From Oscillospiraceae bacterium (GTDB lineage: Bacteria > Bacillota > Clostridia > Oscillospirales > Ruminococcaceae): a DNA stretch of 59,896 bases. The notes beneath the pieces were generated by a model. That model saw nothing but the letters and a program-made list of their open reading frames with translations. It was not told the DNA's origin and made no database searches. Where the stretch lies: the NCBI GenBank assembly GCA_017533485.1, contig JAFXIC010000041.1:1-59896 (forward strand), given 5' to 3'. A program made the position numbers and the translations under genes. Shown here piece after piece: positions 14,991 to 30,674 of the stretch (its first letter is position 1; each line of letters starts with the position of its first letter).

Positions 14991-16448
14991 ATGAAAAAGA
15001 TATGGATATTGCTGTGCAGCATGGCGATTCTGACGGGCTGCGGTGTAAAAAATATTGAGAATATAGAAAACCCGGAGGAGACGGAACCTGTTTCCACGGA
15101 TTCTCCGGAACCCGAAACTACCACAGCGCCATCGGAAAGCCTGCTTGCCACAGCGCAGCAGACCACAACCGTTTCGAAGGATACGACGGCAATCTGTACC
15201 GAAGCTGCCGTCTCCTTCATTCAGGCACCCGAAACCGTTCCGGTCGAAGAACGCATGGACAGCGAAAAGTATCGCTTCCTCAGCGGATGGAATTTTTCAG
15301 GCGATTATGTGACGGATGAGAACGGAGATGTCGAACCGGTATACGGCAATGCAATCCTGACGATCGGGGATGGCAATTATCTGGTCAGCTTCCCGAAAGA
15401 AGCGGATACGCGTGTAGAAATCCGGCTCTGTAATTTAGTTTCCGGTGAGCTGGCACGGATGACGGTGGATGCGCAGCCGACGCTGACGCATACGGGCTTC
15501 TGGACATTGAAGCTTGCGGCGGCGGACGAGCCTGCGGTGGAATATCAGGGCAAACGCTATTCCAAAATCCAGTTCTATTCGTATAATTTTCAGCTTGCAC
15601 GGAGTCTGGATATCAGTACGCTGGAACGCGCCGATCACCTCTTTTATGATGAAACGAAGGACACGCTTTATGCCTTTACAGGAGAGGAAGAACGGTTTGT
15701 GCTGAAAAAGCGCGTCCTCTCCGCCGCAGAATTTGAAACGGCAGGAGAATGGAAGCGCACCGACACGGCGGTTTCGGAAGTCGAACAGCTTCATTATACA
15801 AGCTGGGGCTTTCTCTTTACCGGAAAGACAACTGCCGCAGACGGTGAGGGACGGGCAGCATATGGTGTGATTTCGCCGGATGTAACGATGACGATCTCCG
15901 GAATCAGCGAAACGGCGGATTCCTATGGACTGGCACCATTCTGGGAGGGCGCGTATATATATGGAGAGCAGTGTGAAACAGGAAAGGTGCTGCGGCTCTA
16001 CGGCGGTGCCGAACAGACGATTACCCTTTCGCATAAGCCGTCCACCGCAGTCTTTTCCGCATCTCCGAGCGGTGCATATCTGATTGCCGGCGATGTGGTG
16101 CTGGAACAGAAAGAAAAGCGCAGAAATCCGCGCTTGAAATCCACGCTTTATCAGTACTGGCAAAAATATTACTGGCTGCTGGCGTATGATTCGGGCGGAA
16201 CGCTGATCGGAAAATCCGCGTCGATTGGCGCAGGCTTTGAAAAGCTGGAGAATGCGGAAGCCTCACGTGATCTGGAGGATCTTCGGTTCCAGTTTTTCTA
16301 TGACGAACAGCGCGCGGAGGTATTTTATGCGGCGGATCGGGAGGATTCCGGTTCTATGCTGCCGATTGGTGGTATGATGGAATGTATGGATATGCGGACA
16401 ATTGACAAATTACCGTTTGGAGAGAAAGAATCCGAAGATGAAACATGA
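14991..16448 (+). CDS. Lipoprotein of unknown function, tandem copy 1
   Basis: The 485-residue protein begins with a lipoprotein signal (MKKIWILLCSMAILTGC, lipidated Cys17), then a Thr/Glu/Pro-rich linker to about residue 80, then a beta-rich domain resembling a propeller or sandwich (repeated strands such as GNAILTIGDGNYLVSF). No catalytic motif is seen. The downstream neighbour has the same architecture and 15-base spacing, and a shared local pattern (GNYLVSF against GAYLLCF), suggesting an old tandem duplication. AAGGAGC precedes the ATG. It may bind a ligand at the outer face of the membrane. Confidence 0.7.
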   Translation: MKKIWILLCSMAILTGCGVKNIENIENPEETEPVSTDSPEPETTTAPSESLLATAQQTTTVSKDTTAICTEAAVSFIQAPETVPVEERMDSEKYRFLSGWNFSGDYVTDENGDVEPVYGNAILTIGDGNYLVSFPKEADTRVEIRLCNLVSGELARMTVDAQPTLTHTGFWTLKLAAADEPAVEYQGKRYSKIQFYSYNFQLARSLDISTLERADHLFYDETKDTLYAFTGEEERFVLKKRVLSAAEFETAGEWKRTDTAVSEVEQLHYTSWGFLFTGKTTAADGEGRAAYGVISPDVTMTISGISETADSYGLAPFWEGAYIYGEQCETGKVLRLYGGAEQTITLSHKPSTAVFSASPSGAYLIAGDVVLEQKEKRRNPRLKSTLYQYWQKYYWLLAYDSGGTLIGKSASIGAGFEKLENAEASRDLEDLRFQFFYDEQRAEVFYAADREDSGSMLPIGGMMECMDMRTIDKLPFGEKESEDET

Positions 16449-16463
16449 ATAAAGGAGTATGCG

Positions 16464-17624
16464 ATGAAAAAGATCGCGGCATTGCTGATCTGTACGGTGT
16501 TTCTGAGTGCCTGTACCGATCCTGAGCTGCCGGAGGGGGCGGAATCCCAGCAGCCGCCGGCACTCGGTACGACATCCGAAGTCTCGGAGATGACGCAGCA
16601 ATCGGCTGATACCACGGCTGCGGTGCACGATGGTGCATATGCGCTGCTGAGCCAGTATTTAGAGCGAAAGCCGGAGACATCTGTGCTGAAGAACTGCCGG
16701 ATGCTCGGCGGGGGCGCATATCTGCTCTGTTTCGAGCAATCAGACCATAGCTATGAAATTGAATATACCACGCTGTCGCACGGAAAACAAATCTATACGA
16801 TGAGCGACGGCGCTGCACATTCTGCGGCGGATGGCTTTTGGGTACTCAGTCAGGCGAGTGAAAGTACAGCCGCCGCAATGGAATGGCAGGATATCCGCTA
16901 TCAACGGCTGCGCGTTTATCAGGATTCGCTGAGTCTGGAAGCAGATGTAGACGTATCGCCGCTTGGAACGATTGACGCATTCGCTGTGGATATTGACGAG
17001 CGGGATGTGTATGCGGCAAGGCATACGGCGGAAGGATTACAGATTGAACGGCTGGGATTTTTCGCTGATACACCCGAAACAGTTTGTGTGATCGGGGCGT
17101 CCGGCGAGAATGCATACTTGCAGACAATCCGTTCGATGCATATGGGTGACGGGCTGCTGCTGGTCGTCGGAGAGGCATCTGAAAACGGAGAAACGGTGCC
17201 CTGTTTCGGGAGTATTTCTCTGCGGCGCGGCACAGTCTGGCTGCATACACGAAAAAACGGAGGTGCTTTCGAAGCGGCACCCTATGACGGCGGCGCGTAT
17301 TTTTATGACGCGGAGCACCCGACCGGTATCATCTATCGGATCGGGGATGCCAGAGAATCGGAACTGACGCTTGGATATGCCGCGGAGAGTATGCAGGTTT
17401 TTTCGGCACAAAGCGGTGCATATTTCGCAACCTGCATGAAGATCTCGGAAACTGCCGCAGAAATTACGGTGTATGATTCCGAAGGCGGACGGATTACAAA
17501 ATCAATTTCTCATGAATCCGCCCCGATTGCAGCACGTTCGGAAATCCGGATGTATTTTGATGAGGATGCAAGAAGACTGCTCTACTGTGTGGCAGACAAT
17601 GACTGGCGGGAGCTGCTCTATTAA
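16464..17624 (+). CDS. Lipoprotein of unknown function, tandem copy 2
   Basis: The 386-residue protein has a lipobox LSAC (Cys17), a low-complexity Ser/Thr/Glu linker to about residue 52 and a predicted all-beta domain. It looks like a shorter paralogue of the upstream lipoprotein and is in the same operon. AAAGGAG lies upstream of the ATG. I recognise no named family. Both lipoproteins lie just before the kinase/phosphatase operon, but a terminator at 17667-17714 separates them. Confidence 0.68.
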   Translation: MKKIAALLICTVFLSACTDPELPEGAESQQPPALGTTSEVSEMTQQSADTTAAVHDGAYALLSQYLERKPETSVLKNCRMLGGGAYLLCFEQSDHSYEIEYTTLSHGKQIYTMSDGAAHSAADGFWVLSQASESTAAAMEWQDIRYQRLRVYQDSLSLEADVDVSPLGTIDAFAVDIDERDVYAARHTAEGLQIERLGFFADTPETVCVIGASGENAYLQTIRSMHMGDGLLLVVGEASENGETVPCFGSISLRRGTVWLHTRKNGGAFEAAPYDGGAYFYDAEHPTGIIYRIGDARESELTLGYAAESMQVFSAQSGAYFATCMKISETAAEITVYDSEGGRITKSISHESAPIAARSEIRMYFDEDARRLLYCVADNDWRELLY

Positions 17625-17880: not shown

Positions 17881-17909
17881 TTGACATGATTCACGAAAGG
17901 TGGTATACT
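17881..17909 (+). promoter_or_regulatory. Consensus promoter of the kinase/vWA/PP2C operon
   Basis: TTGACA (17881-17886) and TATACT (17904-17909) are separated by 17 bases, leaving a leader of about 75 bases before the first gene. Confidence 0.82.
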
Positions 17910-17990
17910 AAACATGATGGCAGTTTGCGTGACAGGAGCTATTTTAGATCAAACATAAAACCATATTACGAACAGTCAGGAGGGATTCTC

Positions 17991-19019
17991 ATGCGATGCG
18001 AGAAATGTGATGCGCCGCTGGAAGCGAAGCTGTCGGGATGTCCGAAATGCGGTGCACCGGTTCCGCAGAATATTGAGGGTTTTGATACAACGATGGAGTT
18101 TCAGAAGGCGCTGCGTGCCATCGTCGTTCAGTATGGTCCGGGTGCTGTCGTGAATCCTGCACGCTTTATCGGACTGCTGAATGATTATGTCCCCGATTAC
18201 GACAAAGAACGCCGCCTGCTGATCAATATGTATCAGATGGGCGTTTTTAAAATGCTGATCAGCGAACCGAACCGTGAAATCGCAGTCATGAAGATCAAGC
18301 GGTATATGACTGCGGATCTGTATCTGGCGGAATATGCGGCAGAATTCGTAACTGCCTGCTTTACATATCTGATGGGATGGGTATATGAATCGCCGCTGAA
18401 GGTTGTGGCGGACGAAAAGCCGGAAACGGAGAAGAAACCACAGCCGAAAAAACCATCCTTTATCATCGAGGACATGAGCTTTACCCCGATGGCAGCCCTC
18501 AAATACCGGCTCAGCGGCAATATTACGATACCGGAAGGCTATACACGGATTGACGCATTCTGTTTCGATAAATTCAGCTCGCTCCGGACAATCCGTCTTC
18601 CGAATACCCTGATGATGATCGGGGAGTATGCGTTTTCATCCTGTAAGCGGCTCAGGGGCTTAGAGCTTCCCGAAGGACTTCGGGTGATTAAGGCGGGCGC
18701 ATTCAGCCAGTGTACCAATCTGGTTGTCGTCAAGATTCCGGACGGCGTGATTGAAATCGAGGACAGCACCTTCTCGTTTTGTACAAGCCTTGCGACGCTG
18801 ATCGTCCCCGACAGCGTCAGCAGCATCGGTGCAGAGGCATTTTCGGGCTGTGAAGCACTCCGGAAGCTGTATCTTCCGGAGAGCGTGAAATTTATCGACA
18901 CAAATGCATTTTCGTACTGTCCGAATCTGGTGATCCATTGTCCGGAAAATTCATATGTACATAAATACTGTCTGGTGAACGGAATTCCGCACCAAATCGC
19001 TGCACAAGCTGAGGAATAA
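17991..19019 (+). CDS. Zinc-ribbon / BspA-type leucine-rich-repeat protein
   Basis: The 342-residue cytoplasmic protein starts with a zinc ribbon (two CxxC pairs, CEKC and CPKC, in the first 25 residues). A helical domain follows (about 30-140), then a Lys/Pro linker, then a C-terminal LRR_5 array of about five repeats of the form L..I.LP..L..IG..AFS.C. No signal peptide is present, unlike most secreted BspA proteins, so it probably acts inside the cell as a protein-binding platform. The start MRCEK follows AGGAGGGATTCTC; an upstream ATG overlaps the -35 box and is rejected. It is the first gene of the kinase operon. Confidence 0.8.
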   Translation: MRCEKCDAPLEAKLSGCPKCGAPVPQNIEGFDTTMEFQKALRAIVVQYGPGAVVNPARFIGLLNDYVPDYDKERRLLINMYQMGVFKMLISEPNREIAVMKIKRYMTADLYLAEYAAEFVTACFTYLMGWVYESPLKVVADEKPETEKKPQPKKPSFIIEDMSFTPMAALKYRLSGNITIPEGYTRIDAFCFDKFSSLRTIRLPNTLMMIGEYAFSSCKRLRGLELPEGLRVIKAGAFSQCTNLVVVKIPDGVIEIEDSTFSFCTSLATLIVPDSVSSIGAEAFSGCEALRKLYLPESVKFIDTNAFSYCPNLVIHCPENSYVHKYCLVNGIPHQIAAQAEE

Positions 19020-19066
19020 TTGATTTGCAGATTACGAAGATATCGACTTAGAAAGGATGAGGTCAT

Positions 19067-20410
19067 ATGATAGAGCTTGAAATTGGTCAGGAAGTCGAAA
19101 TGGAATTCGGCGGAAAAGCCAAGGTTTTAAGCGTAATCGGAAGCGGCGGACAGGGTACGGTCTATCTCGTGCGGTTCAATGGTCAGAAATGGGCATTGAA
19201 ATGGTACGATATCGACAAAATGAAAAAACCTAAGGCGTTCCGGAAAAATCTGGAGGATAATATCAATGACGGTCCGCCCAGCAGCCAATTTCTCTGGCCG
19301 AAATATCTGACGAAAGAAACGGAGGACGGGACATTCGGTTATATTATGGAGCTGAAGCCCGAGGGATTCGATTCGTTCGTCGATATTCTGAATACATATA
19401 AATTGGAAGTGGATTCACTGACAGGTCATGCGCTCAAGAAAAACGTGCGGTTCGCAAGCCTGAGCGCGATGGTAACCGCAGTCATCAATATCGTGAATGC
19501 CTTCCGTCAGCTCCACAGAGTCGGCAAAAGCTATCAGGATCTGAATGATGGCGGCTTCTTCATCAATGTCAATACGGGTGCGGTACTGGTCTGTGACTGT
19601 GATAATATCGCACCCGACGGCAGTAATTTCGGCATCGGCGGAAAACCCGGGTATATGGCACCCGAGGTTGTGAGAGGCATCGCCCAGCCGAATGTACAGA
19701 CAGATAAATATTCCCTCGCAGTCGTCCTATTTAAGCTTCTCTTCCGCGGCGATCCGATGGAGGGAGAAAAGGTTGTGCGGGATGTTTGTCTGACGGAATC
19801 CGCGGAGCTTCGCCACTACGGCCAGAATGCCGTGTTTGTCTATGACCCGGCGGATACCTCGAATCGTCCGGTTCGCGGAATCCACGATAATGTCATCCGA
19901 TTCTGGCGCATCTATCCCGATTATGTAAAGGATGTATTTATCCGCTCCTTTACGATCGGTATTGCCGATCCGACAAAACGTGTGATCGAGAATGAATGGC
20001 AGAAGCTCTTTTTGCGGCTGCGGCTGGAGATTATCCAGTGCGGCTGCGGAAGAACCAATTTCAGCTCCATGTTTGTACAGGAAAGCGAGACGAAATTCCG
20101 TTGTCCGAAATGCGGCATGGAATTTGCGACGATGGGATTCAGTCACCGTACCACAAGACTTCCGCTCTATCTGGGCTGTAAATTCTATGCCTGTGATATC
20201 AGCCCGGACTCCGAGGACTTTATGACAGTTGCCGGAGAGCTTGTGGAAAATAAGCTGAAGCCCGGCGTCCTCGGAATTAAGAACTGTTCGGAGTTCAAGT
20301 GGAAAGCGAAGATGCCCGACGGCGTTTTCTACGACATTTTCCCCGGAAAAGGCTTTCCCGTCTGGCAGGGACTTGAAATTGATTTTGGTCAGATTACAGC
20401 AAAAATCTAA
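19067..20410 (+). CDS. Protein-kinase-like protein with C-terminal zinc ribbon (TerY-P-triad type)
   Basis: The 447-residue protein has a Ser/Thr-kinase fold in residues 15-310. Visible are the glycine loop GSGGQGTVY (25-33), the ATP lysine in ALKWY (Lys45), catalytic Asp158 in YQDLNDGGFF, metal Asp179 in CDCDNI and MAPE (197-200). The HRD arginine is Gln, the loop Lys is Asn and the usual Asn is Gly, so the catalytic loop is atypical. A zinc ribbon (Cys325, Cys327, Cys346, Cys349) and a C-terminal domain follow. Kinases of this type pair with vWA and PP2C proteins in TerY-P triads, and both genes follow immediately. The likely role is phosphorylating the vWA protein or an associated substrate. 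Confidence 0.85.
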   Translation: MIELEIGQEVEMEFGGKAKVLSVIGSGGQGTVYLVRFNGQKWALKWYDIDKMKKPKAFRKNLEDNINDGPPSSQFLWPKYLTKETEDGTFGYIMELKPEGFDSFVDILNTYKLEVDSLTGHALKKNVRFASLSAMVTAVINIVNAFRQLHRVGKSYQDLNDGGFFINVNTGAVLVCDCDNIAPDGSNFGIGGKPGYMAPEVVRGIAQPNVQTDKYSLAVVLFKLLFRGDPMEGEKVVRDVCLTESAELRHYGQNAVFVYDPADTSNRPVRGIHDNVIRFWRIYPDYVKDVFIRSFTIGIADPTKRVIENEWQKLFLRLRLEIIQCGCGRTNFSSMFVQESETKFRCPKCGMEFATMGFSHRTTRLPLYLGCKFYACDISPDSEDFMTVAGELVENKLKPGVLGIKNCSEFKWKAKMPDGVFYDIFPGKGFPVWQGLEIDFGQITAKI

Positions 20411-20459
20411 GCTGCTCTCCGTCCCTCGGACAGCATAATCAGAAAGGATGAAAGAACGT

Positions 20460-21272
20460 ATGAGCAATGAAAAGTTTACAGATCCGGCATTGGACGCAAT
20501 GGACGATAACCTGCTGGATTTTGATGATGATCCGCTGAGCGCAACAGGCGTTTCCCGAAAAAGTCTTGTAATCTTCTTCCTCATAGATACATCCGGCAGT
20601 ATGAAGGGTAAGAAAATGGGCGAGCTGAATACCGTGATGGAGGAGCTGATTCCCGAAATCCGGAGAGTCGGCGAGGCAGATACCGAAGTAAAGATTGCCG
20701 TCCTGACCTTCTCGACCGAGGTTCAGTGGATGTATGCAAACCCGATTCCGATCGAGGAATTCGAATGGGCAAGACTCCGCGCAAACGGTGTGACGAGCCT
20801 CGGCGCCGCATTCAGAGAACTGAACCAGCGGATGTCGCGCAACGGCTTCCTCAATTCTCCTTCGCTCTCCTTTGCCCCCGTGATCTTCCTTATGACAGAC
20901 GGCTATCCGTCGGATGACTATAAGGCTGGGCTTGAAGAGCTTCAGGGCAACAGCTGGTATAAATACGGACTGAAAGCCGCACTCGGTATCGGTCAGGAAG
21001 CCAATGACAATATTCTGGCAGAATTTACCGGCTCTGCAGATACCGTTGTCCACGCGTATTCCGGCGAACAGCTCGCACAGATGATCAAGATTATCGCCGT
21101 TACATCCTCTCAGATCGGAAGCAAGAGTATGACGCTTTCGGATGATACCGGAAAAGAACTCGGCGAGGATGATGTGTTCGCGGCAAAACAAAAGCTCCTC
21201 GGTCAGCAGATTCAGGAGCTTGTCAGCAGCCAGACCGATGGAAGCGATATTCCTTTCGATACAGGCTGGTAA
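20460..21272 (+). CDS. von Willebrand factor A domain protein (TerY-like)
   Basis: The 270-residue cytoplasmic protein has an acidic N-terminus (about 30 residues), then a vWA domain. The metal-ion site is complete: DTSGSM (Asp43, Ser45, Ser47), Thr112 in GVTSLG and Asp147 in MTDGYPSDD. The C-terminal 60 residues form an extra segment. TerY-like proteins bind partners through this metal site and occur with a kinase and a PP2C phosphatase. The start at 20460 is chosen because AAAGGATG lies about 12 bases upstream, whereas the earlier ATG at 20448 overlaps that site. Spacing to PP2C is 36 bases. Confidence 0.88.
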   Translation: MSNEKFTDPALDAMDDNLLDFDDDPLSATGVSRKSLVIFFLIDTSGSMKGKKMGELNTVMEELIPEIRRVGEADTEVKIAVLTFSTEVQWMYANPIPIEEFEWARLRANGVTSLGAAFRELNQRMSRNGFLNSPSLSFAPVIFLMTDGYPSDDYKAGLEELQGNSWYKYGLKAALGIGQEANDNILAEFTGSADTVVHAYSGEQLAQMIKIIAVTSSQIGSKSMTLSDDTGKELGEDDVFAAKQKLLGQQIQELVSSQTDGSDIPFDTGW

Positions 21273-21308
21273 CATCCCGATCAGCTTATCGGAAGGAGGT
21301 CAGGAACA

Positions 21309-22220
21309 ATGTTCAGCGGCTTCAGCCATTCGGTCAGAGGCGCAAGTCATGAAAAGACCGGTCTGGTTTGTCAGGACAGCTCCGCCTTTAAACTCGGTGA
21401 ACAGTATGCGGTTGTGGTGGTCGCGGACGGCCACGGCAGCAAGAAGCATTTCCGCAGCCATCTCGGTTCTCGGTTTGCCGTAGAAGCTGCGATCGAAGCA
21501 ATCGACAGATTCTATGAAAGAAGCGAAGAACTGGAAGCGAATCTTCCTGAAAACCATGCGCGAATTATCCGGAATATCGAAAAACAGATTATCTCCAACT
21601 GGAATCGCCGGATTGATGAACATCTGGCAGAATGTCCGGTGACGGAGGAAGAAAAAAGTAAATTCAAACCCGAAGATTTTGCAGCAATCCCCCCGGAGTC
21701 CTACTATGGTTCCACATTGGTTGCGGCAGTTGCCGGAGCGGACTATACGTTCGGTCTCCAGATCGGTGACGGAAGTCTTGTGGCAGTCCTCGAGGACGGA
21801 AGCGCAGTGATGCCGATGGCGTATAATGAATCTGCGCCCGCGAACGTCACCGCTTCCATCTGCAATTCCAATGCGGCGAAAATGTTCAGCAGCTTCTACT
21901 TGCCGAACAGCCGACTGATCGCGCTGTTTGGCTCAACCGACGGGCTTTATACCTCGTTCGGAAGCGAATATGATTTTCTCGATTACCATTCGATTATTAC
22001 AAGCCGGCTGAACGATTCGGGTACGTTCGGAAATGTCATTCTCCAGAATCTTAAAAAACGTACCCACTACGGCACAGAAGATGATATCTCGCTGGCGTGT
22101 GTGTTCCATACGAAGCTGCTCGAGGAAAAACTGGGGCTGCTGCAGGAAAAGGTTTCGGAGAATAAAGCGCGTTCCGCACAGAGAAAAGCCGAACAGCTTT
22201 CGAAAAAAGCTCCGAAGTAA
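21309..22220 (+). CDS. PP2C-family Ser/Thr phosphatase
   Basis: The 303-residue phosphatase shows the PPM metal-binding motifs: QD (Asp23), VADGHGS (Asp40-Gly41), IGDGS (153-156), STDGLY (Asp211) and GTEDDISL (Asp258, Asp259). All metal-binding Asp residues are present, so it should be an active Mn/Mg-dependent phosphatase. The C-terminal 40 residues form a charged helix. It presumably reverses the action of the kinase two genes upstream. AAGGAGG lies before the ATG. Confidence 0.9.
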   Translation: MFSGFSHSVRGASHEKTGLVCQDSSAFKLGEQYAVVVVADGHGSKKHFRSHLGSRFAVEAAIEAIDRFYERSEELEANLPENHARIIRNIEKQIISNWNRRIDEHLAECPVTEEEKSKFKPEDFAAIPPESYYGSTLVAAVAGADYTFGLQIGDGSLVAVLEDGSAVMPMAYNESAPANVTASICNSNAAKMFSSFYLPNSRLIALFGSTDGLYTSFGSEYDFLDYHSIITSRLNDSGTFGNVILQNLKKRTHYGTEDDISLACVFHTKLLEEKLGLLQEKVSENKARSAQRKAEQLSKKAPK

Positions 22221-22260
22221 CAGGGAAATCACGCAGAAATGCGTGTAATAATTCAGAAAA

Positions 22261-23490
22261 GTGGTGTTTGTTTTGGATATTGGTTCTTTCTATCAAACGG
22301 CTAAAAATTTTGCAATGACAGTCAAGCAGCAGAAGCCTGAATTTGCAAAGGATGACGCGTGCTTATGTCTGATTATCACAGATTCGGGTGATATCTATTC
22401 CGGTGTCACAGGAATCTCCATCAATGAAGGTACCGTCGCTGCACTTTCTGCCGAAAAGATTGCGGTTATGTCCGCTGTGACAGCGCAAAAGGTCATATCA
22501 AAGCAAATGATCCTCATTTCTTTGGATGACTTCTGTATCCTCCAGCCGGAAGATGATGCGCTGGCAATGCTGGTGCGTTCGGGCGTGGATAACAGCAGTT
22601 GTCAGGTTGTGACATCACTCGAGGAGAGTGTTTCCGCGGCAAGCCTCGTTCCTTCCGCTGCCGTATCGGATTTCCTGAGCGGCTATGATGATGCGGAAGC
22701 TCCGACGCTTGGTGCACCCGCAGATTTTGCAAACGGTGTCCGCGTGGATGCGGCAAATCCGTTCGGCAATGCGCCTGCTGCGTCGGCATCGGGTCAGCCC
22801 GGCGGCGAAAATGTCAGCTTTCTCTATGAAAAGCCCGAAGAAGCCCGCCTTCAGGGTGCAAGTGGGTTCCAGACGCTGTACGCGCAGCAGACAGGCTATC
22901 CGCGGCAGGGGGCTTATCCCCAGCAGAATGCTTACCCCCAGCAGCCAAATGGTTATCCGCAGCAAAACGGTTACCCCCAGCAGCCAAATGGCTATCCCCA
23001 GCAAAACGGTTATCCCCAGCAGCCAAATGGCTATCCGCAGCAGAATCCTTACCCTCAGCAGCCAAATGGCTATCCGCAGCAGAACCCTTATCCCCAGCAG
23101 CCCAATGGCGGCTATCCGCAGCAGAACCCTTATCCCCAGCAGCAGCCGTTCCAGCCGCAGAATCCTTACCAGAATCCGGCATATGCCCAGAATATGAATG
23201 CGGCGCCGTATCCGCAAAACGGATATCCCGGCGTTTCGGTTCCGATGCAGCCCACACCGGCAGCCGGCGCATTCCAGCAAAGCAGTCAGGTTGTATCAGC
23301 CGGGCCGGGCGGAAATGCCTTTATGAAGCGGCTGAACCGATTCTTGGATGAGGAGGATACGGAGGATACCGCGGCGGAAAACGATGCTCCCGCAGCAGCC
23401 GAGGGAATGTCCCGGGAAGAAATGCTGAAACACGCAATGGACAGAAAAAAGGTTGCAAAAGCCAATCTGAATCTGAAAAAAATGGATTGA
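22261..23490 (+). CDS. Degenerate cytidine-deaminase-like domain fused to a prion-like Pro/Gln/Asn/Tyr tail
   Basis: In this 409-residue protein, residues 30-132 follow the cytidine deaminase pattern: LIITDSGDIYSGVTGI aligns with the first strands and SAEKIAVMSAV (63-73) with the CAE helix. QPEDDALAML (95-104) aligns with PCGACRQVI and LVPS with LLPG. The zinc ligands are replaced (Cys to Ser63; both later Cys lost), so deaminase chemistry is unlikely. Residues 212-322 are repeats of YPQQNGYPQQPNG type, strongly disordered and prion-like. An acidic and then basic helix ends the protein. The start is GTG at 22261; TTG at 22273 is a real alternative. The domain call rests on pattern reading. 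Confidence 0.7.
   Translation: MVFVLDIGSFYQTAKNFAMTVKQQKPEFAKDDACLCLIITDSGDIYSGVTGISINEGTVAALSAEKIAVMSAVTAQKVISKQMILISLDDFCILQPEDDALAMLVRSGVDNSSCQVVTSLEESVSAASLVPSAAVSDFLSGYDDAEAPTLGAPADFANGVRVDAANPFGNAPAASASGQPGGENVSFLYEKPEEARLQGASGFQTLYAQQTGYPRQGAYPQQNAYPQQPNGYPQQNGYPQQPNGYPQQNGYPQQPNGYPQQNPYPQQPNGYPQQNPYPQQPNGGYPQQNPYPQQQPFQPQNPYQNPAYAQNMNAAPYPQNGYPGVSVPMQPTPAAGAFQQSSQVVSAGPGGNAFMKRLNRFLDEEDTEDTAAENDAPAAAEGMSREEMLKHAMDRKKVAKANLNLKKMD
22894..23226 (+). repeat. In-frame tandem repeats encoding YPQQNGYPQQPNG units
   Basis: The 39-base unit CAGCAGCCAAATGGCTATCC and variants repeats about seven times with few changes, giving a Pro/Gln/Asn/Gly/Tyr-rich tract. Near-identical DNA between units suggests recent slippage, so copy number may vary between strains. 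Confidence 0.85.
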
Positions 23491-23502
23491 TTCCGTGACA
23501 GC

Positions 23503-23520
23503 CATCCCGACAGCGGGATG
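23503..23520 (+). other. Intergenic hairpin inside the operon
   Basis: CATCCCG (23503-23509) and CGGGATG (23514-23520) form a perfect stem with an ACAG loop, without a T tract. It may process or partly stop the transcript before the last gene. Confidence 0.45.
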
Positions 23521-23607
23521 CGATGTCATCGCCAACAACATCTCTAACCTTAAAAGCTTCTAGATTTGAGAGCATAAGAACAGATAAAAAGATATGGAGG
23601 GTGTACT

Positions 23608-24138
23608 ATGACTTATTTGCTCAATATTGATGAAGCCATCGACAGAAAGTTCTTGGTATTGAAATCCATGAAAGGTCAAGCGGATACCGGTACCATCATC
23701 CATGTTATGGATGCTATGAATGCACAGGATTTCATTATTGTAAACTATCGCGTCGCGCGCTTCAACGAAAAATTCCATGATTATCAGGATTATACTGCAA
23801 AGTTTGATGACTTGGCGCAGTTTTGTAAGTGGGCACAGCCTGATAATTTTATTGCCCGGAACTATGAGAACATCAACATTAAGGATATCCAGCATTATAT
23901 TAAGGTAAAGAACAGGACGCTCGTATCATTCTGTCTGCCTGTCATTCTGGTATTGACGCTCATCATCTGGGTAGGATCGTTCCTGCTTCTGCCGGATCTG
24001 GCAGCGTTCCTCCTGAGCATTGTGCTGAGTGTTGGTGCCGCAGTTGCTGTGCTTTATGATTTCAAGAGCCAGAAGAAGAAAGAAAAAATGCGTCTCTATC
24101 GTAAGATCGGATCGAAGTGGGGCGTTGTATTTAAATAA
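23608..24138 (+). CDS. Two-TM membrane protein, last gene of the kinase operon
   Basis: The 176-residue protein has a soluble N-terminal domain (about residues 1-110), two adjacent membrane helices (about 112-150, SFCLPVILVLTLIIWVG and a second one) and a short basic cytoplasmic tail. I recognise no family. The N-domain lacks catalytic signatures. TATGGAGGGTG lies upstream of the ATG. The position before the operon terminator suggests it couples the kinase/phosphatase module to the membrane; this is inference. Confidence 0.65.
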   Translation: MTYLLNIDEAIDRKFLVLKSMKGQADTGTIIHVMDAMNAQDFIIVNYRVARFNEKFHDYQDYTAKFDDLAQFCKWAQPDNFIARNYENINIKDIQHYIKVKNRTLVSFCLPVILVLTLIIWVGSFLLLPDLAAFLLSIVLSVGAAVAVLYDFKSQKKKEKMRLYRKIGSKWGVVFK

Positions 24139-24140
24139 TG

Positions 24141-24190
24141 AAAAAAGCCATACATCGGCGCAGAAAAGGCGCTGGGTATGGCTTTTTTAT
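24141..24190 (+). terminator. Operon terminator
   Basis: AAAAAAGCCATAC (24141-24153) pairs with GTATGGCTTTTTT (24176-24188), with an inner GGCGC/GCGCT stem. It is the strongest terminator in the window and closes the 17881-24138 transcript. Confidence 0.93.
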
Positions 24191-24275
24191 GGGGATTATT
24201 TTTTGGGGATGCAAAAAGAAAAGGGGAGCATGGGATTTGGTATGCCTATGTTTATCGTGCTAAAATAGAACGAAA

Positions 24276-24734: not shown

Positions 24735-26423
24735 TTAAGAATCGGAAATGTCGGTTTTGATGAGCGTATCATTGATTTTCTCGACGAGAGAAACAATATT
24801 GTCGATCGAATCGTGAATCATACCGGAGTGCTCATTCGTAATTCCGACATTATCATCCAGTGCGCTGAATGCAGAGATCGTGGTTTCGAGGATGCTGATG
24901 AGCTGAGAAACACTGCTCTGATCCATCGTCGGATTATTGGAACAGAATACGACAATATTTTCGAGCAGCTCCTTGACGACTGCGGCACGCTCACTGGTTG
25001 CGGCGGTAGATTTTCCGATGGTGGTCATGCTGTCGGTAATTTTCGCGATATCATCCTTGAGCTGATCGGAGAGATCGAGACATTCTGTGGTGATATCGGT
25101 GAGCCGGAGATGTTGTTTTGTGAGGAGGGAATGGCGTTCATTGAGGATTGTTTTCGCGTGGATGATGCAGTTATCGGGTGTATTCAGTCCGCGGTAGATT
25201 GCGGTTGCCATATCGCGGCAGGTCTTATATCCGCAGGCGCGGCAGTCATAACATCGTTTTTCCTCGGCACCCATGCCCATTTCCTCATAAATCCGCTGGA
25301 GCTGAGCAGCGCTGGGTGACGGGGAGGGCATCGTCGGCTTATAGTTACGGAGGAAGTCCACAACCCGCAGCTCTTCGTCAAATTTTTTGAATAGTCTGTC
25401 CTCGCCGCGTCCCATCATACCGGTCATCTTCCGGCGGCTTTTTGCAGCAGTTTCGATGCCGCGCATGGTTGCCATAATATCGAACGCACTCTGTGCACTT
25501 CCGGTTGCGGGGCCCATGTTGCAGCCGTGTTCACAGGAGAGGACGTCAAAAACCTGGGGATGTTTATTCTCCGGCATTTTCGCATACATTTTAATTTCGG
25601 AGAAGACTCTCCGGACGCCGTCGGAGCTTGCGATATTGAGGTCGGGCTGATGCGTCCAGAGATTATCGCGCAGTCCGCCCGGACGAGAAAAGATGGAACC
25701 GAGCTGACCCTGCGGTTCATCAAATTTATATTCAAAGGAATCATCCGGATCGACGGCAATATTGATGCCGTTGCGCTTGAAATATTCCATGAGCTTCTGG
25801 ATGGTGATGCTGTAATCAATCAGTTCGGTGGCTTCGGCTTCCTGTTTCATGGCGATACAGGGAGAGATCACCGCAATGGGATTGGTTCTTCGGAGATATT
25901 TTTTGACATAGATTGCGGCACATCCGGCAGGGCTCTGGATGGGGGAGAGGTTCTGTACAAGCTTCGGCTGATAGATTTCGATGTATTTGACGACAGCCGC
26001 GCACTGCTGGGTAATGACATTGCCCATATTTCCCTGATCTATCGTGCGGAGATGCGCCCAGGTACAGATATCTGCACCGAAAGAAACGTCGAGGATGACG
26101 CATCCTTTTTCGCGAAACCAGTCGAGTACGCCGCGCCATTTGTTCGGGAGCGCAGTCTGGAGTGCAGGGGATGCAAGGATTGTGACCTTTTCCTTCGCCA
26201 TCTGTGCGATACATTCCTCGGTGTCGTCGATATAGTCTCTTGCGCCGTGGTTGCAGCTCTTGATGCACTGACCGCAGGCGATACATTTATCGGGGTTAAT
26301 CATGGTGGTATATCTGCCGTTATCGAGTTGTTTGGTAAGGTTTGCTTCCGGTGACGGACAGCTTCGGATACAGGCATTGCATCCGATACATTTTTCAGGC
26401 TTTACAATAATAATTTCATTCAT
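24735..26423 (-). CDS. Ferredoxin / hydrogenase-like / [4Fe-4S] protein with chemoreceptor-like tail
   Basis: The 562-residue soluble protein starts with two [4Fe-4S] ferredoxin motifs (Cys12/15/18/22 and Cys47/50/53/57). An [FeFe]-hydrogenase large-subunit-like domain follows (about 75-330). Of the H-cluster motifs, L2 is ISPCIAMK (Cys189) and L3 is LSCEHGCNMG (Cys297, Cys301). The usual L1 TSCCP reads LSPIQSP, so an H-cluster Cys is absent and a sensory role is likelier than catalysis. A further Fe-S domain (Cys391, 394, 397, 402, 419) precedes a helical tail (440-562) with the heptad look of methyl-accepting chemoreceptors. It is co-transcribed behind the coiled-coil gene, with a 40-base gap. 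Confidence 0.82.
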   Translation of the reverse strand: MNEIIIVKPEKCIGCNACIRSCPSPEANLTKQLDNGRYTTMINPDKCIACGQCIKSCNHGARDYIDDTEECIAQMAKEKVTILASPALQTALPNKWRGVLDWFREKGCVILDVSFGADICTWAHLRTIDQGNMGNVITQQCAAVVKYIEIYQPKLVQNLSPIQSPAGCAAIYVKKYLRRTNPIAVISPCIAMKQEAEATELIDYSITIQKLMEYFKRNGINIAVDPDDSFEYKFDEPQGQLGSIFSRPGGLRDNLWTHQPDLNIASSDGVRRVFSEIKMYAKMPENKHPQVFDVLSCEHGCNMGPATGSAQSAFDIMATMRGIETAAKSRRKMTGMMGRGEDRLFKKFDEELRVVDFLRNYKPTMPSPSPSAAQLQRIYEEMGMGAEEKRCYDCRACGYKTCRDMATAIYRGLNTPDNCIIHAKTILNERHSLLTKQHLRLTDITTECLDLSDQLKDDIAKITDSMTTIGKSTAATSERAAVVKELLENIVVFCSNNPTMDQSSVSQLISILETTISAFSALDDNVGITNEHSGMIHDSIDNIVSLVEKINDTLIKTDISDS

Positions 26424-26463: not shown

Positions 26464-27531
26464 TCATTTCTTTATTTCAGGTTTTCCGATGGCATTGGCT
26501 TTTGCGGTGAGTGCGGCAAGGTCAATCCCACCGCTTTTCTTTTCCGGTTCCGAAGGTTTTGCATCTTCTGACTCGGCATCGGATTTCGGCTGTTGTTTGC
26601 TTCCGAGCGCATTTGCCATCTGCATCAGCTTATCCAGTTCCTGTTGTTTCTTATGTTTTTCCTCGGAATCGGACGCCGCCTCACGCCGTTTCTGCGAAAG
26701 GGGCTGGGGCGGAGCAGGAAGCTCCGGTTCATAGTGTTTCGGTTCACGGAATACGGGTACGCCGCCTTCCGTGAGGGTCTGCCTTGTTTTGGCGAGCAGC
26801 CGTTCGGTCTGATTGAGGCGTTCCATACCGCCGTGATGGAAGGAGCTGAGGATATTCTGCATGGTATTGATTTCGTCTTTCAGCGCATTGACATCATTCA
26901 GGACAGCGGCTCTGAGATTATTGGATGCAGCACCCATCTGTTCGGCTTTATTCTGTGCGTCCGCGATAATCGTTTTCGCAGATTTATTGGCTTCGAAGAT
27001 AATCTGTTCGGCATCGGAATTGGCTTCTTCGACAATCGAGACCGCAAGCTTCTTTGCATTTTCTTCGAGCGCGGCACATTTTTCCTTCGAGGATTCTTCG
27101 AGCATTTTCGAAGATTTCTGCGCTTCGATAAAGACATTGCTGAGCGCGACGGCTTCATTTTCCGTCTGAAGTGCGCGAAGCTTTGTTTCGGTATCCTTCA
27201 AGGTGTTTTCGAGCTCAGCGAGTGTTTTCCTGAGGTTTTTGATTTCGAGTACATAGTTACGGTTTTCTTCCTCGGAGGCTTTGAGCTTAGTGGTGAGGGT
27301 ATCGTTCTGAACCTGTGCCTGCGTCAGTCTGGCACGTTCTGCCGAGAGAATGGTTTCATGCGCTTTTTCCTCGTCGGTACCTTTTTTATAGGCATCGAGG
27401 AGCGCTCTGGATTCTGTCAGCTTATTGCTCAGGTCATGTACTTGTGTATTGAGATGTTCGAGTTTCTGGATGACGCTTGTTTTCTCATATCCGCCGAAAG
27501 TGACGGTTTTGATGAATCTAGCTTCCGCCAT
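26464..27531 (-). CDS. DivIVA-like coiled-coil protein
   Basis: In this 355-residue protein the N-terminal segment (FGGYEKTSVIQKLEHLN) resembles the DivIVA membrane-binding start. A long coiled coil follows (about residues 25-235, regular heptads, with an Ala/Glu/Lys-rich stretch 140-205), then a Pro/Glu/Lys-rich disordered tail. No enzyme motif is present. Proteins of this kind mark poles or septa and recruit partners. AAAGGAGG lies before the ATG. The downstream gene encodes the Fe-S sensor-like protein, so this one may position that sensor in the cell. Confidence 0.72.
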   Translation of the reverse strand: MAEARFIKTVTFGGYEKTSVIQKLEHLNTQVHDLSNKLTESRALLDAYKKGTDEEKAHETILSAERARLTQAQVQNDTLTTKLKASEEENRNYVLEIKNLRKTLAELENTLKDTETKLRALQTENEAVALSNVFIEAQKSSKMLEESSKEKCAALEENAKKLAVSIVEEANSDAEQIIFEANKSAKTIIADAQNKAEQMGAASNNLRAAVLNDVNALKDEINTMQNILSSFHHGGMERLNQTERLLAKTRQTLTEGGVPVFREPKHYEPELPAPPQPLSQKRREAASDSEEKHKKQQELDKLMQMANALGSKQQPKSDAESEDAKPSEPEKKSGGIDLAALTAKANAIGKPEIKK

Positions 27532-29307: not shown

Positions 29308-29414
29308 ATATCCTTACGGATGAAACTGTTTCTCTATCTACATCTATCTGTGATTGTTGCTTTTTATGATACAGCATACCTGCTAAAATCTAAATAAGAG
29401 AGGAATTATTGAAT

Positions 29415-30674
29415 ATGGCATTATTGGATCGTATATTTAAGAAAACTGAGGATGGAAAGAAAATCGAAGGTTATAGTCCGAGAATGTATCTCCAGATGAA
29501 GATCGTGTATGTTCTCCTTTCTATCCTGAATATCATCGTTGTACTGGTTTCGTTCTATAAGCTCGGCTGGGCAATGTATAATGCACAGCTTTCGTTCGGT
29601 GCGATTGCACGCGCGGACGAGAAGCTCTTACAGTCAAATACTGCCGTTATGGTCATGCTCTCCGATACCGAACAGATGCCCGCACAGATTGAAAAGCTGG
29701 AAGGTCTGTTCCGTGAAATGGACGAAGCCGTTGTGGATTTCAATGCAATCGGCTCGGTTGACGAAGGCGTGAAAGAACGCTTCGATCAGTCGATGGAGGC
29801 TGTCGGAAAGTATCGTACCGGTCTCCAGCTCTGCCAGCAGCAGTATGAAACGGCTGTGGGCAACGCAGAAAAGCTCGAAAATTTTGAAACCAATATTCTC
29901 GCACTCTATCATTCGGATGTTGAACCGCTGATGAACGAAGCGACAAAGCTGATGAGCGAAACGATGGATTATCAGAAACAGAGTGCGATCGACACATTCT
30001 TCGAGAAGGCACGCTCTGTGCTGATCGTTCTGGCGCTGATGATTCTGATTCTTGCGGTCGGCGTGATTGCAATTACCATGATGGATCGTGCGGCAAAGCG
30101 TGCGGCAATCGAATTGCAGAAGCGCGCACAGGAAATCGAGGAAACCTCCAAGAAGCTCTTCCAGTCCAGAAATAAGACGAAGGCGATGGCGTTTACGAAT
30201 GTGCTGACGGGACTGAAAAACCGCTATGCACTCGAAGAAGATCTCGGAAGCCGACTGGAATCCGAAAGCTTTAATATCGCAAACTTCGACTTTGATGGAT
30301 TCCGTAACTTCAATGAAGTATATGGCCGTGATTTCGGTGATGAATTCCTGTCTACGATCGCGGAACAGCTGAAAGCACAGTTCTCTGAGATTGCCGAAAT
30401 CTATAATATCACAAGCGATGAGTTTACGTTCGTGTTCCAGCCGAGCGTCACCGGTAATCAGGTGATGGGCATGGCACAGCGTATCGCAGAAGTGATGTCT
30501 GCAAGCTATACGGTATATAATGTTACCGTCCAGCTGACCGTTTCCGGATGTGCATACCGTTATGCGGCAGGCGAATGTCTGAGTCTGAACTCGCTGCTGA
30601 GTAAGATGGACGGCGTGATGCATACCGTGAAGAATAACGGCGGCAATGCAGTCCTCGAAGTCAATCGAATCTGA
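29415..30674 (+). CDS. Membrane sensor with degenerate GGDEF domain
   Basis: The 419-residue protein has two membrane helices (about 30-52 and 195-220) that flank an extracellular helical-bundle sensor (about 55-190), a short coiled linker and a C-terminal GGDEF-fold domain (about 255-419). LTGLKNRYALEEDL and FDFDGFRNFNEVYG match the family, but the active-site loop reads ITSDEF instead of GG(D/E)EF, so cyclic-di-GMP synthesis is doubtful. It may bind GTP or act as a protein-protein relay. The start is ATG at 29415; TTG at 29409 is nearly as good with the AGAGAGG site. Confidence 0.8.
   Translation: MALLDRIFKKTEDGKKIEGYSPRMYLQMKIVYVLLSILNIIVVLVSFYKLGWAMYNAQLSFGAIARADEKLLQSNTAVMVMLSDTEQMPAQIEKLEGLFREMDEAVVDFNAIGSVDEGVKERFDQSMEAVGKYRTGLQLCQQQYETAVGNAEKLENFETNILALYHSDVEPLMNEATKLMSETMDYQKQSAIDTFFEKARSVLIVLALMILILAVGVIAITMMDRAAKRAAIELQKRAQEIEETSKKLFQSRNKTKAMAFTNVLTGLKNRYALEEDLGSRLESESFNIANFDFDGFRNFNEVYGRDFGDEFLSTIAEQLKAQFSEIAEIYNITSDEFTFVFQPSVTGNQVMGMAQRIAEVMSASYTVYNVTVQLTVSGCAYRYAAGECLSLNSLLSKMDGVMHTVKNNGGNAVLEVNRI

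Follow-up and report, generated by a model that had tools for sequence, protein, structure and literature searches.

A TerY-P-type kinase, vWA and PP2C operon with conserved partner genes, probably a chromosomal signalling hub in Ruminococcus and near relatives

What does a member of the Ruminococcaceae do with a kinase, a vWA protein and a PP2C phosphatase that share an operon with three unfamiliar genes? The question is raised by a window of 59,896 nt (the whole stretch of DNA analysed here) from Oscillospiraceae bacterium, assembly GCA_017533485.1, contig JAFXIC010000041.1. All six open reading frames (ORFs), designated g1 to g6, were found on the forward strand where the initial annotation had placed a six-gene operon. 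They are predicted to code for a protein with zinc ribbon and leucine-rich repeats (LRR), a Ser/Thr kinase, a vWA protein, a PP2C phosphatase, a deaminase-like protein with a low-complexity region, and a small protein with two hydrophobic stretches. The system is probably a chromosomal Ser/Thr phospho-switch of TerY-P type that serves as a signalling hub in Ruminococcus and near relatives, and from the sequences this is the best reading, preferred over a Ter or a defence system. Its core is known already, and the embedding of the core among partner genes and neighbours is new.

The core genes g2, g3 and g4 matched Pkinase (PF00069, 3.9e-11), VWA (PF00092, 3.4e-9) and PP2C_2 (PF13672, 5.2e-36) in Pfam, and the kinase profile matched solved kinases. 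Residues C325, C327, C346 and C349 of the kinase zinc ribbon are invariant in 42 aligned rows. The vWA motifs are kept in 74-77 of 77 relatives (DxSxS in 77/77) and the PP2C motifs in 67-72 of 72 (DGHGS in 72/72). In the parts of PMC11090510 and PMC4978471 that were available, the TerY-P triad is described as a kinase with C-terminal zinc ribbon, a vWA protein and a PP2C phosphatase; the trio fits this description, as the initial annotation had proposed. No TerY-specific model matched g3, the last 88 amino acids (aa) of the kinase had no match in Pfam, and the search of PP2C against solved structures gave nothing significant.

Relatives were collected in a scan of named genomes by two peptide patterns, which gave 113 relatives, 80 of them kept, so that the scan favours close kin. 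The kept relatives are titled Ruminococcus (including strains of R. flavefaciens and R. albus), Oscillospiraceae, Clostridia or Clostridiales; one metagenome-assembled genome supplied two of the loci, L042 and L043, as separate contigs. Within the genus, PP2C was present in 11 of 24 relatives, and the search with the kinase alignment matched 16 of 30 genomes. Of the Ruminococcus-type loci, 65 have enough sequence around the kinase, and 62 of these carry g1 to g5 on a single strand in the same order, the core genes being adjacent as in the published triad (as far as its description was seen). The three exceptions (L111-L113) miss only g4 at the locus. Replacement of PP2C by a GGDEF gene in these three was set aside because each of the three genomes has a PP2C gene (60-61% identity) elsewhere, outside the fetched stretch. 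The genes flanking the trio thus recur beside it in relatives, a point on which the initial annotation had staked its proposal, and g1 and g5, with families in 79 and 69 of 80 loci, were rejected as accidental neighbours. Membership of g6 in the operon did not stand. A different set of 65 loci has 1.5 kb or more of sequence beyond g5. In 60 of these, g5 is followed by g6, which shares its strand in 37 and is on the opposite one in 23; in the other five, g6 is lacking within 3 kb. With the opposite strand used in 23/65, g6 was rejected as a fixed operon member and is therefore considered an associate.

The LRR part of g1, read earlier as an intracellular platform, is well matched (LRR_5, 3.8e-35; the zinc ribbon is sub-threshold), but more informative is the helical domain at the N-terminus of the protein, which partners of other triads also have. 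Residues about 28-140 gave no convincing match in Pfam (stray ones only, the best 0.0049) and nothing significant among solved structures. This domain is a candidate docking part, or adaptor, of TerY-P triads. Its unrefined profile matched 8 of 12 distant-kinase loci at E 0.01, and after iteration 10 of 12, with 18 ORFs (L131 and L133 on iteration only); L127, on a 4.8-kb contig, and G877 were not among the 12 loci. All nine distant full triads that were examined have the domain next to them, and it is also present at one (L124) of the three loci where a kinase was seen with no vWA or PP2C, the other two being L126 and L128. Partners that carry it have LRR_5 and a DEAD helicase (L133), Sel1 (L132), DUF6273 (L129) or DUF1292 (L135). 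The 80 Ruminococcus loci have 1273 ORFs, and of these the profile matches g1 only (79).

In a sample of 295 genomes of the order, the adaptor domain was found in 11, comprising all eight kinase-positive genomes (at 1e-20) and three of the 287 others; six of the eight had supplied rows of the adaptor model, while G436, from the genus of a supplier, and G877 had not. The domain occurs without a nearby triad in G646, G641 and G753, and on another contig in G877. A sample of 299 genomes of the phylum revealed it in the window genome, in G069 (three copies) and weakly in G156. G069 supplied no model rows and is the only other genome of this sample with a strong vWA match, and its adaptor copies flank a kinase-vWA-PP2C set. 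In the loci examined, the profile matches partner proteins only, and not the kinase, vWA or PP2C. A protein of 754 aa with the adaptor domain was also found at L149:9211-11472, with no triad in the fetched 19 kb.

Gene g5 has no Pfam match and g6 none above the cut-off. In six of the 80 loci a deaminase-like paralogue sits after g6. It matches dCMP_cyt_deam_1 at 1.3e-4 (22.3 bits, below the cut-off of 25), and HAE and PCxxC are kept in its five rows, four of them distinct. When profiles were compared in hhalign, the N-terminal domain of g5 and the paralogue agreed with 97.5% probability and E 6.8e-12. The earlier label of degenerate deaminase for g5 holds. In 20 g5 rows His and the first Cys are kept in none, and Cys stands at the second place in one. 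Because His and the first Cys are kept in 0/20 rows, deaminase catalysis by g5 is unlikely; a binding or scaffold role may be proposed. At least eight YP[QM] repeats are present in 53 of 75 relatives of g5, and none in nine. Searches of solved structures with the g5 N-terminal domain, the paralogue and g6 gave nothing significant. In the g5 relative of G012 (L014:8873-8944), codon 24 is an in-frame stop, either real or a sequence error.

The conserved block is larger than the six genes first delimited. When ORFs of at least 80 aa were clustered by single linkage across the 80 loci, 11 families around the kinase were found in 45-79 of them, and the next family in only 10. The operon families occur in 79 (g1), 78 (g2), 69 (g5), 68 (g4), 67 (g3) and 56 (g6) loci. 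The neighbour families are GGDEF (61, two kinds of GGDEF protein pooled in one cluster), a coiled-coil protein (60), a hydrogenase homologue (58), a sugar-binding lipoprotein (58) and a 194-aa family (45). These counts are too low, since antisense ORFs displaced some genes. The flanking genes occur in several arrangements among the loci; in the window, the genes downstream of the operon include those for the hydrogenase homologue, the coiled-coil protein and the GGDEF protein. The 194-aa family has no Pfam match and is near the coiled-coil gene (e.g., L109:2121-2705).

The hydrogenase homologue matched Fe_hyd_lg_C (7.7e-27), Fer4-type clusters and the FeS domain. None of the NCBIfam hydrogenase models reaches its cut-off, and no PAS domain was matched in Pfam up to E 0.1. 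The four Cys ligands of the H-cluster are kept in 59/59 relatives. At the position of C299 of CpI, in the alignment to a solved [FeFe]-hydrogenase, the window protein has Gln; the 59 relatives have Pro (38), Gln (19), His (1) or Ser (1), and Cys in none. According to the part of PMC10055695 that was available, 17% of sensory hydrogenases have Cys there, and the residues of the homologue agree with the sensory [FeFe]-hydrogenases of that paper. Its presence follows the kinase. It was found in 16/16 kinase-positive versus 0/14 kinase-negative genomes of the genus, and, in a sample of the family, in 18/27 versus 1/270 (Fisher 2.9e-21). The tiers of the family sample were set by us at >600 bits for the kinase and >690 bits for the hydrogenase homologue, and the split gene of G588 was counted. 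Co-occurrence holds even where about 24 kb separate the two genes (G006) or where they are on different contigs (G340, G377); breaks in draft assemblies could mimic the latter.

An additional GGDEF gene is inserted in the operon directly before g5 in 15/80 loci, both named R. albus strains included. The gene preceding it is g4, except in L111-L113, where it is g3. The GGDEF string was found in 12 of these 15 genes and not in those of L077, L111 and L112; L034 and L041 were not counted, as their genes lie beyond g6. In the wider family, seven consecutive short membrane GGDEF genes with altered GGDEF motifs lie between PP2C and g5 (L140:11951-18733).

The following mechanism may be proposed. The kinase and PP2C would set the phosphorylation state of a scaffold, which could be g5 and/or the vWA complex. 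The product of g1 would dock to the triad via its N-terminal helical domain and present its LRR to a client. The hydrogenase homologue (for H2 or redox) and/or the sugar-binding protein could supply the inputs, and the GGDEF proteins would act as input or output partners. The picture of an LRR platform, a disordered scaffold and a membrane link, given in the initial annotation, is plausible from the domain content. A much wider proposal is tentative and rather doubtful: TerY-P would be a general phospho-switch core to which interchangeable partners (LRR, Sel1, DUF6273, DUF1292, helicase) dock via an unnamed helical adaptor, and the hub that Ruminococcus would have domesticated from it would read H2 or redox by way of a sensory hydrogenase and sugars by way of a lipoprotein, talk to GGDEF second-messenger proteins, and have altered metal chemistry in its kinase. 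In rumen and gut, R. flavefaciens and R. albus degrade fibre and pass on H2 as a currency to methanogens. A hub with a sensory-hydrogenase homologue and GGDEF proteins would be a concrete candidate for the sensing of H2 or substrate in these two species. The adaptor domain gives a handle on the choice of partners by TerY-P triads, and the kinases with Gly for Asn offer a natural way to test the metal chemistry of kinases.

Several observations weigh against a signalling hub of this composition. The kinase is without the catalytic-loop Asn, and the promoter upstream of g1 is missing in two of 26 sequences compared (L143 and L089, the latter R. albus 8). In the window, no sugar-binding lipoprotein is beside the operon, two other lipoprotein-like genes standing there instead, and the eleventh family (194 aa) is absent. 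Nine of the 27 kinase-positive genomes of the family lack a close hydrogenase homologue (in six of the nine there is a homologue at 35-38% identity), and in G577 the homologue occurs without the kinase. The genomes are related and co-occurrence counts are not independent, so that P values overstate the case. Some of these points would suit a system of g1 to g5 only, with the hydrogenase, coiled-coil, GGDEF and sugar-binding genes being neighbours by shared ancestry of the region. The gene order common to related genomes, the different genes upstream in the window and the nine genomes just mentioned speak for it, but conservation of the flanks ends with the 11 families, the neighbour genes remain close in differing arrangements, and the hydrogenase homologue accompanies the kinase even from a distance or, draft assembly permitting, from another contig. 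This explanation is unlikely. A module for defence against phages or stress, with g1 and g5 as effector parts, is somewhat less likely still. The parts of PMC11090510 and PMC4978471 that were available link TerY-P to type IV restriction systems and report TerY-P-like stand-alone defence; the kinase matches the PADLOC models PD-T4-6 (7.6e-13) and mad6 (9.5e-12), and in the distant triad at L133 the DEAD-helicase protein begins with the adaptor domain. PADLOC recognized nothing in g1, g3, g5 and g6, however, and in g4 only AbiEi at 0.011. No nuclease, helicase or mobile gene was found by Pfam among the conserved families, four of the eleven having no match above cut-off, and the neighbourhood, unlike patchy and swapped defence islands, stays constant across 80 loci whose kinases share 76-90% identity with the query.

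The third alternative concerns the kinase itself. In 35 of 42 aligned rows, those of the window and of distant L124 included, Gly at position 163 replaces the catalytic-loop Asn, presumably the metal-binding Asn of standard kinases. The loop is DGGFF in these rows versus GNFF in seven distant kinases, 7/8 aligned distant kinases keep Asn, and the split is one branch with support of 100/97; the deep order of the tree is uncertain because of long branches. The distant kinases were taken from 8 of 14 mid-tier matches of the family, 4 of 5 matches from outside it (G877 came later) and G069; eight of 13 distant rows entered the alignment, and L125, L129, L130, L131 and L027 did not. Because the Asn is lost, kinase activity is not assured, and g2 could be a pseudokinase in a complex that works by ATP binding or scaffolding, with PP2C acting on the phosphates of other kinases. 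A second copy in G476 (L137:8516-10747), in a kinase-PP2C pair with no vWA found, has lost the catalytic Asp as well as the Asn. On the other side, K45 and the DFG-equivalent D177 are present in 42/42 rows and the catalytic D158 in all except L137, and constraint is strong throughout. A pseudokinase is improbable.

Set beside known systems, of which the cited sources were available in part, the operon is unlike the TerY-P triads described there in its fixed LRR and pseudo-deaminase genes beside the core, and no restriction or secretion gene was recognized in the conserved block. The published definition, as far as seen, does not include the kinase Asn that is Gly here. A Ter system is rejected on TerD only. 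In agreement with the initial annotation, which saw no TerD partner, TerD (PF02342) occurs in 0/16 kinase-positive genomes of the genus, the window genome (88% complete) included, and in one of all 30 (G007). TerC, TelA and TerB were not among the Pfam matches of the scanned genes, no genome-wide search for them having been made. A kinase-PP2C-vWA set is also part of GAP1-N2 GTPase systems, a theme restricted to actinobacteria (PMC7159879, partial text); here no GTPase domain was found in the operon genes and conserved partners scanned, a genome-wide search not having been made. The effector-associated domains (EADs) of the same source are similar to the adaptor in that a small, helical-looking domain is on variable partner proteins of one signalling core; unlike in EADs, it was seen in partners only, with no copy on a core component. 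HydDB names a putative phosphatase-linked class of [FeFe]-hydrogenases, Group C3 (PMC5037454, partial text). The homologue is comparable in that a candidate sensor resembling a hydrogenase is linked to the gene of a Ser/Thr phosphatase, but the link here is to a kinase-vWA-PP2C set and no PAS domain was seen. No paper on this Ruminococcus block was found by title or start of abstract in the open-licence literature; the founding TerY-P paper (Anantharaman 2012) is outside it and may mention parts.

Table 1. Features of the operon and of the genes downstream of it in the window
Feature	Position	Strand	Basis or remark
Promoter, extended sigma-70, TTGACA-17-TATACT	17881..17909	+	score of 11-12/12 upstream of g1 in relatives
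g1, zinc ribbon (C3, C6, C17, C20), candidate helical adaptor domain (about 18072-18410), BspA-type LRR	17991-19019	+	
g2, Ser/Thr kinase, catalytic loop YQDLNDGGFF, zinc ribbon (C325, C327, C346, C349), 88-aa C-terminal stretch	19067-20410	+	
g3, vWA protein, metal-ion-dependent adhesion site (MIDAS) motifs present	20460-21272	+	Pfam, motif counts
g4, PP2C phosphatase, metal-site motifs present	21309-22220	+	Pfam, motif counts
g5, degenerate cytidine-deaminase-like domain, YPQQ-repeat low-complexity region, basic tail	22261-23490	+	
g6, 176-aa protein, two hydrophobic stretches	23608-24138	+	read from sequence alone
Intrinsic terminator	24139-24195 or, more narrowly, 24141..24188	+	-28.5 kcal/mol, z -7.35
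[FeFe]-hydrogenase homologue, sensory type, Fer4 clusters, FeS, helical-looking C-terminus	24735..26423	-	
Coiled-coil-like protein, sub-threshold DivIVA similarity	26464..27531	-	kept beside hydrogenase homologue
Membrane GGDEF protein, degenerate motif TSDEF	29409..30674	+	outside operon

The promoter and the strong terminator that had been named as bounds of the operon are both supported. In the region, 11 sigma-70-like sites were found versus a shuffle mean of 10.0, and the site in Table 1 is the best of them. Of 26 sequences (the window and 25 hand-picked loci), 24 have a site of such a score ahead of g1, versus 4 of 1040 single-base shuffles. Two neighbouring, related lipoprotein-like genes without counterpart in the 80 loci are located immediately upstream of the operon (window 14991-17624). 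The longest ORF of g1 begins at 17886, and the ATG at 17991 is preceded by a Shine-Dalgarno sequence common to relatives. The likely start of g5 is TTG at 22273, where the ATG of most aligned relatives falls. Between g5 and g6 there is a gap of 117 bases, and it contains a weaker hairpin (z -2.6).

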